64,000 nt of DNA from assembly GCF_000585495.1 (NCBI RefSeq), contig NZ_CP007264.1, positions 1-64,000 on the forward strand, read 5' to 3'. How positions within the stretch are numbered: position 1 is the first letter of the stretch; every line of letters starts with the position of its first letter. The DNA comes from Thermococcus nautili (GTDB lineage Archaea; Methanobacteriota_B; Thermococci; Thermococcales; Thermococcaceae). The position numbers and the translations under genes were made by a program. Positions 926 to 10,137 of this stretch are shown piece by piece. The notes beneath the pieces are model-generated. The model was not told where the DNA came from. It ran no database searches and was given only the letters and a program-made list of their open reading frames with translations.

Positions 926-1528
926 TCACCCCCTCAGGTTGCTCTCAATCTTTCCCAGAACAGGAGACCGCTTTCGCTCCTCGTAGGCCTTGACAGGCTC
1001 CTCCTTCCCCGTCAAGCGCTTGACTTGGCGGAACATCTCATCGAACCAGCCAACCTTGTACAGGTAGTAGATGATGACCACTCCCAAAATGAGGCTCCAC
1101 GCCTTCCAGCTCAGCCTCGGCCTCGGAATACTGATTCCCCGTTTCACCCTTTCACCCTTCACCGTCTCTCCCGGTTTTTCACCCTGGTGAGCACGGGGGA
1201 CTTTAGGGGATTCCTCGCGCTTCACCTCCTTCTCGCGATTTTCAACCGGCTTCACCCTCTCACTCTCCCCGCTCTTCACCTCGCTTCCGCGTTCCTCAAC
1301 CTCTGCAGTGACCTCCTTGGCCTGTTCCTCTTCCTTCTTCTCGCTCCTCTTGCCTAAAATCCGCTCGCGCTCCTCCTCCGGTAGTTTTAGAAACTCCTCG
1401 TAAGGAACAACCCGCTTAGAACGGCAGACCGAACACTGAGGCTTCTTCGCGCGGCTCCAGAACTTGTTTCCACAACGCAGGCAGACATACAACCTTCTCC
1501 CGCTCGCATCTTCCACAAGTCTCACCAC
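926..1528 (-). CDS. Zinc-ribbon protein with a transmembrane segment
   Basis: Protein of about 200 residues. The N-terminus has a four-cysteine zinc ribbon (C16, C19, C32, C35), then a long charged linker and one transmembrane helix at about residues 141-158. The C-terminal tail ends in VLGKIESNL, echoing the end of the protein at the left edge of the window. The start is a GTG, and a second GTG codon follows immediately, so the exact start is uncertain. It is the first gene after the MCM and has its own promoter with the element's repeated TTCTGGTTCA box. Function is unknown. Confidence 0.7.
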   Translation of the reverse strand: MVRLVEDASGRRLYVCLRCGNKFWSRAKKPQCSVCRSKRVVPYEEFLKLPEEERERILGKRSEKKEEEQAKEVTAEVEERGSEVKSGESERVKPVENREKEVKREESPKVPRAHQGEKPGETVKGERVKRGISIPRPRLSWKAWSLILGVVIIYYLYKVGWFDEMFRQVKRLTGKEEPVKAYEERKRSPVLGKIESNLRG

Positions 1529-1593
1529 CCTTCATCTGATTTGAAGGTGAACTCCGGGGAAAACTCCCCCAGATTCCCCTATTTGCACCCTTG

Positions 1594-1642
1594 TATTTAA
1601 GCAGTGAACCAGAAATGTGCAGAATTCGGGAGAAATCTCCCG
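1594..1642 (-). promoter_or_regulatory. Element promoter A: repeated box plus TATA, with hairpin
   Basis: Read on the minus strand, TTCTCCCG, an 11-base spacer and TTTCTGGTTCACTG lead directly into the TATA-like GCTTAAATA. The same arrangement occurs at two other element promoters (6307-6349 and 7453-7485). The upstream edge also forms the inverted repeat CGGGAGA/TCTCCCG (1627-1642), just downstream of the MCM stop, which may act as MCM terminator or as part of the operator. It should drive the zinc-ribbon gene and the genes after it. Confidence 0.6.
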
Positions 1643-1649
1643 ATAATTT

Positions 1650-4409
1650 TCAAAGCCATCTCACGAGCTCACCCTCCACTTGGAGGTAGTTCAATCTCTC
1701 ACCCTTCTCAAGGAACTTTCTGATTTCGTCCTCGCTCAGGCCTTTCTCTTCCAAGGTCCTGAAAACAAGCTCAAGCGGAACGACATCACGATTTCTCGTC
1801 AGCTTCTCCATTACTCTCACGAACAGCTCGAACCTCTCGCGCTCCCTCGACGGGACACCAACCTCAAGAATGCTCGCGTCAATCTCCCCGGTTTCCGGGT
1901 CATAGGCGACATATTCCAAGCTCTCCCAAATTAACCTCACGGCTTCCTCAACGTCAATCTTCTCGACTTTCTCAGCCAGGCGAAGCTTTGCATGAGCATA
2001 AGCCAACCTCACAATAGCGTCCATTACACGCCTGCTAACTGGCGCTCCACTCTGCTTTGTCTTTCTCCTAATCTTCTTGAACTCCTCCACCATCAACCGG
2101 CCGACTTCATCGTCAATCTCAGGGAACACATTGAACCTCGCGTAAGCAAAGAGTTTCTTCAAAAGCTCAGGCTCTATGACCCTCTCGGGAGGCTTCCGGT
2201 TCTTCCTTCTCTTCACCTCACTGAGGATACTCCATCCAATCTCTTCGTCTTTCTCCTTCTCTGGCTCATCGAAGAACGCAAAGATAAGGTCAAATCTCGT
2301 CAGGACTGGAAACGGAACGTCCAGCTGGTCGATGAGTAACTGCCTCCTGTCAATTCTTCCCGCCTTCGGGTTGGCCGTGCCAATGATTGTGGCGGTGGCC
2401 CTTAGCTTCATATTGGAAATCCCCGCCTTGGCCGGCGCAACAAACCCGTGCTCCATGCACGTCTTCAACGCGTTGATATCCTCCCTCTTCAAACTGCTGA
2501 ACTCATCGACCAGGACAATACCATCACTCCCAAGGACCAGCAGGCCACCCTTGACCGTGAACTTTCCAGTCAGCTCATCCTTCTCAAAGCTCGCAGTTAG
2601 GCCAGCGCGCGAGGACCCGCCACCCTCCGCCGTGAGGACCTTCGGAGCAATGTTCTCAAGGTCAAGAGCAAGCCTCGACTTACCAACGCCAGGGTCTCCC
2701 GCGAGGAGGACATGAATCGTCGTCCTCTTATCCCACAGACCCTCGGCCGAGACCACCGCCAATGCAAGAGCCTTCTTGACAGACTCGTAACCCTTAATCC
2801 AGGGAGCGATAGACCTCGCGACGGCGTCAGGTAAGTCATCCCCGTAGAGGTCCTTCAGCTGGAGGACCTTCTTCACGTCCTTCTTGCTAAGCTCTACCTG
2901 GAATCCTCTGTTCAACTGCTCAACATGAATCACCTCGAGCACGTAATCAGACTCGGCCACGCTCTTCCTCAGCGTCTCTCGTACCCGCAGAATGCCGTAG
3001 AGAACTACCTTATCTCCAACGTCCACAGCTCCAGCACCAGAGCCGAGAATGTACGCGCTCAGCTCCTTTGGGTTCTCGCCAACGTGAAGGCTCTCTGGTG
3101 CGTCCCTCACCACGAAATGCTGAATCTCCACCTTCCTTGACTTCTTCACGTCAAAATCCCAAGCTCTCTTAGCACCACAGGAAGGACACTTTGACGGCGG
3201 TGTAGCGGGTTCCCGCGTCGGCCTGTTGAACAGACCAAGCTCATAACCGCACTTGGTACAGACGTACGTTGCCACCTCAAAGAACGGGACAACCTTCGAG
3301 GCGGAGGTAATGTATCCCTCCACCGCCACGAACTTACCCACAAGGTCCGGTCTCATGTCCCTCGGCCTGAACACCCGCGGGAAGTTCCCGACCTTGACCC
3401 GGACCTCAACAGGCTCGAACTCATCATCGAACAGCTCAGGCTCAAGCCGGGCAATCTCCTCGTAAACCTCCTCTTGGAGCTCCCTAACCGCGTTCTCGAA
3501 AGCACCGAGCACAAACTCAGGCTCGTCGAAAAGAGCCTTCGCCAGCCTTGGGTCGTACCTGACCAGGTCAAGGTAGTCCACGTAAAAGTCCTTCCCGCCT
3601 TCCCTCACCAGGTCCCTGACCCTGTCAAGGTAAACCTCCTCACCGTCCCGCTTGAAGTTCCTGAGGAAATCCTTGGCGCTGTTGGTGTAGTCCAGTAAAT
3701 CCTCGGCCTCCTGCTCATAGCCGAGGAGTTCAAGGATTTTCGCCTTGACGAACTTCACCACCGAATCCTTCAGCCTGAAAGCAGGCTCACCGTTCACCTC
3801 GCCAGTGGCGTCGAAAAGGACGGCCTGAAGGCTCTTGGCCGTGTTCCCGTTGCCGAAGAAATCAGACTTGACCCGGTAAACCATGTTCTTGGTAAAACCC
3901 ACCTCCTCCCTGAGCTTCTGCAATATGATGTTTAGAGGAGTCAGCTCATGGCCTTCATCCCTTGCTTCCATGACGATGAGAACCACGTTAGAGTGAACAG
4001 GTCTTGGTAAGCCGTAGGTCTCCTTGATGACATTTAGTAGTCTCTCAAATTTCTCGTTACCAAGCTCTTTTTTGGCTGAACGGTATTTGAACGGTTTGAA
4101 CAAGCTTTGTTCAAACTGCTCCTCTTCAGATTCTCCAAGAACACTCGTGTTCAAACCGTTCAAATCACTTTGAACAGCTCTATAATTCTCAAGCACTACC
4201 TTGTAAGCATTGAGCAGGTCCCTGGTGATTGATGTCGGCAGGAAGCCGTACTGTCCCCTTATCCATATCCTCAGCATGGGACTTAGAACAGCCGGGTCGA
4301 GGTGTTCAAGGCCTTCCTCGTCCATCTGCTTGAGGAGGTCATCTATCTCCTCGATGAGCTTGTCCTTAAGCCTGTCGCTGGCCTGTCTCACCTTCTCTGC
4401 CTCGCTCAT
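1650..4409 (-). CDS. mcm: MCM replicative helicase (element-encoded), long N-terminal extension
   Basis: Hexameric AAA+ DNA helicase for element replication. Visible parts: a treble-cysteine zinc-binding site (CTKC near residue 382, CPSC near 408), Walker A GDPGVGKSR near 569, a Walker B-type VLVDEFSS near 632, arginine finger LTRFD near 701, and a C-terminal winged-helix-like tail. At 919 residues it is well above the 670-700 usual for archaeal MCM. The excess is mostly an N-terminal region of about 250 residues that I do not recognise. Residues 77-111 are encoded by a dense GAAC/GTTC half-site array. The start overlaps the upstream stop as ATGA. The AAA+ motifs look intact, so activity is expected. 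Confidence 0.95.
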   Translation of the reverse strand: MSEAEKVRQASDRLKDKLIEEIDDLLKQMDEEGLEHLDPAVLSPMLRIWIRGQYGFLPTSITRDLLNAYKVVLENYRAVQSDLNGLNTSVLGESEEEQFEQSLFKPFKYRSAKKELGNEKFERLLNVIKETYGLPRPVHSNVVLIVMEARDEGHELTPLNIILQKLREEVGFTKNMVYRVKSDFFGNGNTAKSLQAVLFDATGEVNGEPAFRLKDSVVKFVKAKILELLGYEQEAEDLLDYTNSAKDFLRNFKRDGEEVYLDRVRDLVREGGKDFYVDYLDLVRYDPRLAKALFDEPEFVLGAFENAVRELQEEVYEEIARLEPELFDDEFEPVEVRVKVGNFPRVFRPRDMRPDLVGKFVAVEGYITSASKVVPFFEVATYVCTKCGYELGLFNRPTREPATPPSKCPSCGAKRAWDFDVKKSRKVEIQHFVVRDAPESLHVGENPKELSAYILGSGAGAVDVGDKVVLYGILRVRETLRKSVAESDYVLEVIHVEQLNRGFQVELSKKDVKKVLQLKDLYGDDLPDAVARSIAPWIKGYESVKKALALAVVSAEGLWDKRTTIHVLLAGDPGVGKSRLALDLENIAPKVLTAEGGGSSRAGLTASFEKDELTGKFTVKGGLLVLGSDGIVLVDEFSSLKREDINALKTCMEHGFVAPAKAGISNMKLRATATIIGTANPKAGRIDRRQLLIDQLDVPFPVLTRFDLIFAFFDEPEKEKDEEIGWSILSEVKRRKNRKPPERVIEPELLKKLFAYARFNVFPEIDDEVGRLMVEEFKKIRRKTKQSGAPVSRRVMDAIVRLAYAHAKLRLAEKVEKIDVEEAVRLIWESLEYVAYDPETGEIDASILEVGVPSRERERFELFVRVMEKLTRNRDVVPLELVFRTLEEKGLSEDEIRKFLEKGERLNYLQVEGELVRWL
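4078..4181. repeat. GAAC/GTTC half-site array inside the mcm gene (copy 1)
   Basis: A 104-bp block with at least eight GAAC or GTTC half-sites, flanked mostly by AA/TT (GTTCAA type). It contains a perfect 18-bp inverted repeat (4085-4102 with 4148-4165) and a second palindrome with 8-bp arms around AAGCTT. A block of identical length with the same outer ends (GAACGGTA and GAACAGCTCT) lies in the neighbouring gene at 4509-4612. Both lie in the same orientation and the same codon phase. Candidates are an iteron/origin array, an autoregulatory operator or an in-frame inserted palindromic element. Confidence 0.75.
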
Positions 4410-4900
4410 GTCCTCACCCCCGTGAGCCAGTAGGCTATTGTGGTCGGGTCGGGTTCGACTGGTTTGACCTCTGCTGGCTTAACGGGATTTATTGACTGGT
4501 TTTCAGAAGAACGGTAGGCGAACGTCCCGAACATTTGATGTTCGTCTTTATTACCAGTCATCTCCTCACGAACGCTGTGTTCGTCTGTGTTCGTAGAATT
4601 CCGAACAGCTCTTAACCTGTCAAATACCTCTATCCCTGTGGCGCTGATGTGGTAGCCTGGCACGTATTTGGCCTTGTCAAAGAGGTTGTCGAAGTGCTTG
4701 GCGCGTATAACTGCAAGGACTCCCAGGGCCACGTGGTGAGGGTATCTCGTGCTCAGGTAGTTGTAGAGTTCGCGGGTTATCTCTGCCTTGTCCCTGATAC
4801 CGAGGTGGATAAGTGTAGTGTAAAGGTCCTCCCAGTCCTGTTCCTTAAGGCCGTATTTTTGGAGAAGGTCTATTATCTGTTCGACATGGGTCTCGCTCAT
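4406..4900 (-). CDS. Unknown protein upstream of and coupled to MCM
   Basis: Protein of 164 residues, not recognised. The first 90 residues look helical (MSETHVEQIIDLLQKYGL...) and could be a small winged-helix or adaptor domain. Residues 97-131 are polar, low in hydrophobics and encoded by the second GAAC/GTTC array, followed by a Pro/Val/Glu-rich tail. The start was chosen at the ATG preceded by GGAGGTGG; an upstream in-frame ATG adds 15 residues without a comparable ribosome binding site. Its stop overlaps the mcm start as ATGA, so a role as helicase partner or loader is reasonable but unproven. Confidence 0.75.
   Translation of the reverse strand: MSETHVEQIIDLLQKYGLKEQDWEDLYTTLIHLGIRDKAEITRELYNYLSTRYPHHVALGVLAVIRAKHFDNLFDKAKYVPGYHISATGIEVFDRLRAVRNSTNTDEHSVREEMTGNKDEHQMFGTFAYRSSENQSINPVKPAEVKPVEPDPTTIAYWLTGVRT
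4509..4612. repeat. GAAC/GTTC half-site array in the gene upstream of mcm (copy 2)
   Basis: Exactly as long (104 bp) as the array inside mcm, sharing its boundaries GAACGGTA and GAACAGCTCT and the approximate spacing of the eight half-sites. The flanks of the half-sites differ consistently: here CGAACA/GTTCG, in the mcm copy TTGAAC/GTTCAA. The central inverted repeat is imperfect in this copy. The encoded peptides can be aligned (RAV...SV...F.YRS) although the two proteins show no clear similarity outside this block. Confidence 0.75.
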
Positions 4901-7061: not shown

Positions 7062-7080
7062 GGCAGAGTCACCAATGTCG

Positions 7081-7189
7081 AATTGTCAGAAAATTCTAAT
7101 AATTCTTTCTCTCCGAAATTAGTATATATGACAATTAACAAGAAATTCTAATTGTCAAAAAGTTCGAATTTTGAATACTTTTTTAAAAG
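7081..7189. promoter_or_regulatory. Divergent promoter/operator region with AATTGTC repeats
   Basis: AT-rich divergent intergenic region. It contains a perfect inverted repeat GACAATTA...TAATTGTC (7130-7137 with 7149-7156), a further AATTGTC at 7081 and a direct repeat of AGAAATTCTAAT. TATA candidates are TATATAC (minus strand, about 7123-7130) and CTTTTTTAAAAG (plus strand, about 7177-7188). The inverted repeat overlaps the leftward TATA, so it is a likely operator for the element's own regulator, plausibly the adjacent AbrB-like protein. Confidence 0.6.
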
Positions 7190-7219: not shown

Positions 7220-7402
7220 ATGGCTCAGAGAGGTAGAAAAGGTGGAATTAAGTTAGGTCCTGGCCAGTTTGTAACTCGTGTTGGTTCGAAATACATGGTA
7301 GTGATTCCAAAGGAGGTTAGGGACGAGCTAGATATTAACGTGGGGGACACAGTAATTATAACCGTCAAGAAGGCTCGGGTTGAGGTTGTACCAGTGGAGT
7401 GA
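7220..7402 (+). CDS. AbrB/MazE-like transition regulator
   Basis: Protein of 60 residues. A Gly/Lys-rich start is followed by a SpoVT/AbrB-type swapped-hairpin domain: VTRVGSKYMVVIPKEVRDEL, then INVGDTVIITVKKARVEVVPVE. These proteins bind DNA as dimers or act as antitoxins. The start was placed at the ATG preceded by GGTGATTCCG; the transcript start is predicted about ten bases upstream. It lies divergent to the replication operon with a palindromic operator between them, so it likely controls the element's gene switch. A decayed copy of its 3' end lies at 8179-8217. Confidence 0.85.
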   Translation: MAQRGRKGGIKLGPGQFVTRVGSKYMVVIPKEVRDELDINVGDTVIITVKKARVEVVPVE

Positions 7403-9732: not shown

Positions 9733-10137
9733 ATGGTAAAATCGGGTGGTGTGTACGTACACTCCCAAGCGACCGGAGAGGAGCAGGCCGGAGCGCGGAA
9801 GCGGAGGCGTCCGAGGCGCCTTTCCCCGCGTCTGTACATTACGCTACCGCCAGAAATCTATCGGAAGGCCAAGGAGCGCTGGGATAACGTGAGCCGAATC
9901 ATCGCAAGCCTGCTTGAGGTGGCTTTGGCTGAGGATTTAACGGTCGAGGAGGTCGTGACGGCCGTAACGCTCCTTAGGAGTGGCGCTTTGGTGGTGAATT
10001 CGCCTTCGAGCGCGGGGGTTGCCGAGCCTGGTCAAAGGCGGTGGACTCAAGATCCACTCCCGCAGGGGTTCCGGGGTTCAAATCCCCGCCCCCGCACCAG
10101 AAACTTTTCTGGCGAAAAGTTTCATCAAAGTTGGTAG
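9733..10137 (+). CDS. N-terminal fragment of a split SSV-type integrase, Int(N)
   Basis: A basic, DNA-binding N-terminus (GARKRRRPRRLSPRLYITLPPEIYRKAKERW) leads to a helical stretch. The frame then runs directly into the tRNA-Leu gene, so residues from about 95 on are the translation of tRNA sequence plus chromosomal DNA. The catalytic tyrosine-recombinase domain is missing and should lie at the left end of the element. This is the expected product of SSV-type integration, where insertion at the tRNA cuts the integrase gene; such integrases are known in Thermococcales as suicidal integrases. The fragment is probably non-functional alone. Confidence 0.85.
   Translation: MVKSGGVYVHSQATGEEQAGARKRRRPRRLSPRLYITLPPEIYRKAKERWDNVSRIIASLLEVALAEDLTVEEVVTAVTLLRSGALVVNSPSSAGVAEPGQRRWTQDPLPQGFRGSNPRPRTRNFSGEKFHQSW
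10012..10096 (+). tRNA. tRNA-Leu (anticodon CAA)
   Basis: Full cloverleaf with a 7-bp acceptor stem GCGGGGG/CCCCCGC, discriminator A and encoded CCA. The anticodon stem GTGGA/TCCAC encloses CTCAAGA, giving anticodon CAA; the long variable arm fits a class II tRNA. It is the right-hand attachment copy of the integrated element. No TATA box lies in the GC-rich bases directly upstream, which belong to the integrase frame, so expression of this copy depends on read-through or does not occur. Confidence 0.95.
10012..10099 (+). other. Right attachment site (attR) of the integrated element
   Basis: The attachment core lies within the tRNA-Leu gene, since the integrase frame enters it from the element side. 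A complete tRNA is present at this junction, so the shared core may span most or all of the gene. The exact core cannot be delimited without the left junction. Confidence 0.7.

Follow-up and report, generated by a model that had tools for sequence, protein, structure and literature searches.

Introduction

Type specificity between the O protein and the origin is known from the lambdoid phages. SV40 large T antigen and the Rep proteins of SaPI/SCCmec elements join an origin-binding domain and a replicative helicase in one polypeptide that reads short repeated words, and SaPI-type initiator/origin pairs are modular; to our knowledge, the origins of these T antigen and Rep systems do not lie inside the initiator coding sequence beside the reader domain. 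In phage lambda, the initiator-binding repeats lie in the middle of gene O, where they encode an internal segment of the protein (PMC7466680, PMC6022878). Among archaeal elements, the pT26-2 family plasmids, some of which carry an MCM, have origins predicted by skew and repeats (PMC6972569). The main text of a 2026 preprint (PMC12934983) reports no Orc1/Cdc6 or ORB repeats in Thermococcales viruses, and proposes that the origin is recognized by an N-terminal winged-helix extension of the viral MCMs. Here we address how the MCMs of archaeal viruses and plasmids find an origin without Orc1/Cdc6, using pTN3, a provirus/plasmid of Thermococcus nautili (KF527230) that is base for base identical to our window (the whole stretch of 64,000 nucleotides analysed) from its start to position 10053. 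No Orc1/Cdc6 is present among the 34 annotated pTN3 genes, and the product of TNaP3-04 is an MCM helicase, as the Pfam families MCM_N, MCM_OB, MCM and MCM_lid all score above cut-off. We propose that a phased array of half-sites inside this mcm gene is probably the replication origin of pTN3, lying within the gene of its own initiator and read by the winged helix of the MCM, in a lambda-O-like arrangement.

Two phased arrays in adjacent genes of pTN3

Both mcm and the gene upstream of it, TNaP3-05, contain a 104-bp in-frame array of eight half-sites (Table 1). In plus-strand coordinates, the half-sites lie at 4078, 4089, 4098, 4109, 4139, 4149, 4158 and 4172 in mcm, and at 4509, 4520, 4529, 4540, 4570, 4579, 4589 and 4603 in the upstream gene. 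The offsets (0/11/20/31/61/70 or 71/80/94) are thus equal to within 1 bp, and the orientation agrees at 8/8 positions, while 54/104 bases are identical, largely inside the half-sites. These coordinates confirm the paired in-frame arrays with shared orientation and near-equal spacing described in an initial annotation of this DNA; residues 79-111 of MCM and about 97-131 of the upstream protein agree with the ranges given there, and the perfect 18-bp inverted repeat it noted in the mcm copy is real. Most half-sites are 9-11 bp apart (range 9-14 bp), which places them on roughly one helix face, and a 30-bp gap lies in the middle of each array.

The base preceding GAAC is T in 7/8 half-sites of the mcm array and C in 7/8 of the upstream array. 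Across four array types, agreement at this -1 position is 0.81 within an array vs 0.15 between arrays (0/5000 permutations), whereas the positions after the half-site core show no within-array effect in the same comparison. The flanks are therefore consistent within a copy and different between copies, as first suspected from pTN3 by itself, and aligning the related elements described below extends this covariation to all four types. Additionally, the half-sites are denser than in synonymous-codon shuffles, both in the upstream gene (8 vs a mean of 3.4; 0/500) and in mcm (8 vs 4.5; 2/500), and the spacing and orientation of the mcm array were jointly matched by 0/200 such shuffles. The pattern GWWC(26)GWWC(7)GWWC(5)GWWC(7)GWWC has 9 matches in 94 Thermococcales genomes, every one of them in the mcm/upstream gene pair, and the reversed spacing pattern used as control has 0 matches in the same genomes.

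The half-site word changes on a fixed template

Orthologues of mcm and the upstream gene were compared from G006, G009, G027 and G093, making five elements together with pTN3 (G numbers label the Thermococcales genomes compared; G093 is Thermococcus sp. JdFR-02, and the G006 element is taken to be TKV4-like). Alignment scans of viral contigs with whole mcm, the MCM extension (A2) and two other MCM families, plus two scans of genome contigs, returned one named relative, JdFR-02, and a distant MCM contig (L078) in which no clear array was seen. Type A half-sites (TTTGAAC) occur in the mcm arrays of pTN3, G009 and G027, type B (CGAAC) in the pTN3 upstream array and the G093 mcm array, and type C (GGGAAC) in the upstream arrays of G009 and G027 and the mcm array of G006. 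The upstream array of G006 is of type D (CGATC), in which 7/8 cores have turned into GATC with their positions unchanged. Spacing and orientation are hence fixed across 9 arrays while the half-site word switches array-wide. Judging from these alignments, the orthologous arrays are under constraint at the DNA level.

A conserved peptide motif with biased codons was considered as the sole cause, since the two segments have a weak peptide similarity in common (AV....N...SV...F..F.YRS). In the G006 upstream gene, however, the GATC cores turn a conserved F into I and a conserved V into D, so that the residues shift with the DNA word, and the density and spacing exceed those of synonymous shuffles. 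Homologues that keep the peptide and lose the spacing had been named in the initial annotation as the sign of mere protein constraint; the opposite is seen, and because the spacing is kept while the peptide changes, the pattern is not one of protein constraint alone. The GATC array rules out that explanation, to which we assign next to no probability.

The same change of word bears on an mRNA structure maintained by compensatory changes, because going from GAAC/GTTC to GATC retains self-complementarity, and some arrays fold better than their shuffles (in mcm, z is -3.4 for pTN3 and -4.9 for G006). But all sites change at once rather than pairwise, the sites of opposite orientation are unbalanced (3 vs 5), the pTN3 upstream array is unremarkable (z -0.7), and the folds differ between arrays, with no common structure found by RNA folding. 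A shared RNA structure, one form of the autoregulatory mRNA or DNA structure suggested earlier, is thus unsupported and very improbable; autoregulation as such is kept as a rival and weighed below.

The array is exchanged together with a predicted winged-helix domain

The mcm genes of G006 and G009 differ at 5 positions in nt 1-238, at 123 in nt 239-546 (308 nt) and at 54 in the remaining 2187 nt, which corresponds to 40% divergence over the array and the following ~65 codons vs 2-3% on either side. The converse is found between pTN3 and G027, with 6 mismatches in nt 235-640 (406 nt), 21 in the preceding 234 nt and 251 in the following 2117 nt. The array also moves between genes: 91/98 bases are identical between the array in G006 mcm and that in the G009 upstream gene, despite the different host genes. 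Moreover, the upstream gene of G093 lacks the whole array as an in-frame unit, which answers the earlier question of whether the block can be present or absent as one piece. By these comparisons the array behaves as a cassette, and in mcm it is exchanged jointly with the winged-helix segment.

For MCM residues 111-245, AlphaFold2 with 17 aligned homologues gave a confident winged-helix model (pLDDT 91.5, pTM 0.85); a previous AlphaFold model of MCM 1-245, built from five close sequences, reached pLDDT 51 and was discarded. Fold matches in the PDB are mainly winged helices (SSV1 F-93, TubR and entries of ORC/MCM complexes), none of them individually significant (E 0.13 and up), and a Pfam search of the domain returned no confident family name. 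Specifically, 6/12 residues of the predicted recognition helix differ between type A and type C proteins and 0 between two type A proteins, while the wing shows no differences between types A and C; the divergent segment covers the recognition helix and not the wing. Site and predicted reader types thus covary in the manner of lambda O, array and winged helix being swapped as one segment, across few types.

Table 1 Features of the array locus (window coordinates)
Feature	Position	Strand	Description
mcm (TNaP3-04)	1650..4409	-	919 aa; N-terminal domain, array-coded linker, winged helix, MCM helicase core
TNaP3-05, gene upstream of mcm	4406..4900	-	164 aa, function not assigned; annotated start at 4900; conserved N domain and C-terminal tail flank the array-coded segment
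mcm array, type A (half-site TTTGAAC)	4078..4181	-	8 phased half-sites, mcm codons 77-111; proposed origin/MCM-binding array
Upstream-gene array, type B (half-site CGAAC)	4509..4612	-	8 phased half-sites inside TNaP3-05; same template, non-self type
Perfect 18-bp inverted repeat, left arm	4085..4102	+	In mcm array, partner 4148-4165
Perfect 18-bp inverted repeat, right arm	4148..4165	+	In mcm array, partner 4085-4102
MCM N-terminal domain, residues 1-78	4176..4409	-	Conserved regardless of array type
Predicted winged-helix "reader" domain, MCM residues 111-213	3771..4079	-	Directly follows array; AlphaFold2 model, PDB fold matches
Predicted recognition helix, MCM residues 174-185	3855..3890	-	Within winged helix
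Equivalent of array and reader cassette (mcm nt 239-546, differing between G006 and G009)	3864..4171	-	Array plus first part of winged-helix domain

Arrays in other MCM genes

An MCM-core search found, besides the host MCMs, 12 further MCMs with extra N-terminal sequence. In most extended MCMs, a single word recurs in a cluster within the codons that immediately precede the winged helix, the words in these further proteins being GGAAA, TTGAA, GGGAC, GGGAA, GCAAA, GAAAA, GGAAC and others, and the word density reaches <=1/400 synonymous shuffles in 13/17 extended MCMs. When the pTN3 template was scored with a free 5-mer, G061 fitted at 7/8 positions and G055a, G000b, G027b, G093b and G093c at 6/8 (each 0/200 synonymous shuffles), while eight host MCMs stayed at the null level, none with an array. 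The joint exchange is repeated in a second MCM family (G004/G012a/G061; words GGAAC, GTAAC and TTGAA), in which nucleotide identity is 0.4-0.8 over the array and the first part of the winged helix and mostly 0.8-0.97 beyond. Different MCMs of one genome carry different words in G093 (CGAAC, GAAAA and TTGCA), T. nautili (TGAAC and GGAAA), G027 and G012. The GGAAA word of T. nautili belongs to an intragenic array of its own in a second MCM of mobile-element type (G000:C1:1026550-1028463, L072).

These data bear on a self-spreading palindromic element that inserts in frame, of the Rickettsia palindromic element type, as the initial annotation had suggested. Its presence or absence as a unit (in the G093 upstream gene) and its movement between two genes stand, the block having matching ends in both genes and cassettes being traded between them. 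No spread to unrelated genes was found, the spacing pattern occurring nowhere outside the mcm/upstream pair in the 94 genomes; other MCM families have arrays of unrelated words at this position ahead of the winged helix, and the half-sites of an array switch in concert. Given this confinement to one operon, and given that most extended MCMs have an array ahead of the winged helix, an inserting element of this type is unsupported, and we hold it to be very unlikely.

The MCM loci examined outside Thermococcales have no intragenic array of the pTN3 template. In two of them, word clusters lie upstream of mcm rather than within it. In pFS01 of Methanocaldococcus (L080:1-1255), GATAA words occur at exact 10-bp multiples upstream of a helix-turn-helix (HTH) gene and mcm, as an intergenic counterpart, and in the Altiarchaeum virus Altivir_8 (L083:300-1100), ATATA words ~10 bp apart precede mcm (12 in 110 bp vs a shuffle maximum of 8).

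A candidate origin inside the initiator gene

A helicase with a predicted reader domain, phased sites directly adjacent to it and the co-inheritance of both together suggest an initiator-helicase that recognizes an origin within its own gene. In our model, the initiator would be the element's own MCM, whose winged helix is encoded directly 3' of the array and would read 5-7 bp half-sites about one helical turn apart, thereby positioning the fused helicase without Orc1/Cdc6. Recombination between elements would exchange site and reader jointly, because both lie within ~0.4 kb of one gene, so that specificity could shift without separating the two. The upstream array would be a second cassette copy of the same kind but of another type, serving as an accessory or competitive binding site. 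We infer from these patterns the binding by the MCM domain, the origin activity, the role of MCM as initiator and any role of the upstream array. Consistent with forks starting at the arrays, the GC skew at third codon positions (GC3 skew) of co-directional genes rises across the arrays in 4/4 elements, with values of -0.07..0.03 before and 0.20..0.36 after. The AT content is about 0.56-0.64 in the mcm array vs mostly 0.36-0.5 in the adjoining mcm stretch.

Several observations weigh against this proposal. In pTN3, genes 09-11 have positive skew again and the minimum of skew over the whole circle lies away from the array, so we take skew as supporting evidence only; nor is a marked AT-rich unwinding tract apparent at the mcm array or the adjoining mcm stretch. 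As there are only five orthologous elements, three of them of one mcm type, the apparent covariation of word and recognition helix is based on three types only (A, B and C). Among the other extended MCMs, G010, G037 and G012b have strong word clusters of differing spacing that fit a template variant weakly, and G004, G012a and G074 have no convincing array and do not fit the pTN3 template. Finally, no second domain that might read the upstream array emerged from a sequence search in the elements.

The same anatomy, with arrays inside two adjacent genes of the replication block, would suit a roadblock repressor: the arrays could form an autoregulatory operator at which the MCM winged helix, or some other protein of the element, binds and blocks transcription of the mcm operon, with no role at the origin, and the fold matches of the winged helix include many repressors. 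However, an operator would normally be expected at a promoter rather than 300 bp into two genes, and it would have no need to be restricted to MCM genes; furthermore, the predicted reader forms part of a helicase, and the skew shifts where the arrays lie. We therefore regard the operator as unlikely. Also quite unlikely is a partition or centromere-like site, at which a winged-helix protein would bind the phased half-sites in the way that TubR binds tubC. TubR does rank with the best fold matches in the PDB (E 0.47), and phased repeats and type specificity would also suit partition incompatibility, but the reader belongs to a replicative helicase, and no ParA- or TubZ-type motor is found among the 34 annotated pTN3 genes.

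If the mcm array is indeed the origin, this work offers candidate cis-sites for several MCM lineages. The fixed geometry with a free word would provide a natural series of matched site/reader pairs that could reveal the code by which one winged-helix family recognizes DNA. It would also explain how such sites could escape origin searches that look for a shared consensus or for repeats between genes.

The upstream array

Wherever an element has two arrays (4/4), the one in the upstream gene is of another type than the one in mcm. The pTN3 upstream word is the mcm word of G093, and the upstream word of G009 and G027 is the mcm word of G006. Conceivably, though with a rather low probability, the upstream array is a decoy that titrates the MCM of rival elements and thereby drives co-infecting archaeal viruses towards different origin words; ectopic origin copies that arrest phage lambda (PMC4488673) are a precedent. 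The array may instead serve some unrecognised factor as a second site, or it may have arisen as a recombination by-product and be kept different since identical repeats would be unstable.

Two further genes, the AbrB-like gene 12 (window 7220-7402) and the PIN gene 30, with counterparts in L016, L017 and L018, vary in the pattern of the upstream-array type, a weak pattern across four elements. In both genes, G009 is close to G027, the two are far from pTN3, and G006 has no close match. Neither gene is related to the MCM reader.

Further repeats in pTN3

A second intragenic array, of GGTGA/TCACC at ~6-20 bp intervals, lies in and just before TNaP3-03, the gene after mcm (window 926-1650), whose product has a zinc-ribbon, a low-complexity linker and an apparent membrane helix. 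Relatives have such arrays at L016:9785-10400, L017:9520-10120, L064:3540-4250 and L066:3480-4120. The counts exceed synonymous shuffles in pTN3 (10 vs a mean of 3.3), G006 (25 vs 10.9) and G027 (18 vs 8.2; 0/1000 each) and do so more weakly in G009 (4/1000). Perhaps the array is a membrane-anchoring or packaging site read by the TNaP3-03 protein. Additionally, repeated AATTGTCA/TGACAATT sites occur at window 7080-7165, between the divergent TNaP3-11 and the AbrB-like TNaP3-12, and are likely an operon operator.

Comparison with known systems

Of the three ideas raised in the initial annotation, replication iterons fare best, as the arrays are binding-like and co-vary within each copy. Direct iterons of 17-22 bp, as in iteron plasmid origins, are absent; pTN3 has half-sites of 5-7 bp, 9-14 bp apart, with a 30-bp gap. 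Rickettsia palindromic elements resemble the block in being present or absent as an in-frame unit (G093 upstream gene) and differ in having spread to many unrelated genes, which the pTN3 block has not done in the 94 genomes. The predicted origins of the pT26-2 family are mostly intergenic and without consensus, and intragenic arrays are unreported in the accessible part of that paper (PMC6972569). The viral MCMs with N-terminal HTH extension in PMC12934983 are the same proteins as here; no binding site, array or specificity covariation is described in the consulted parts of the preprint's main text, and the present analysis adds the candidate site and its proposed co-evolution with the reader.

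Lambda O loads DnaB via P and is no helicase, whereas the candidate initiator of pTN3 is fused to MCM; the lambda iterons are longer repeats, while the pTN3 half-sites are short and of mixed orientation, and pTN3 has an archaeal host and a word that varies widely over a conserved spacing template. In having a predicted reader and a helicase fused, the pTN3 MCM is like SV40 T antigen and SaPI Rep, a likeness of domain architecture. As in lambda O, the pTN3 array lies in frame inside the coding sequence of the putative initiator.

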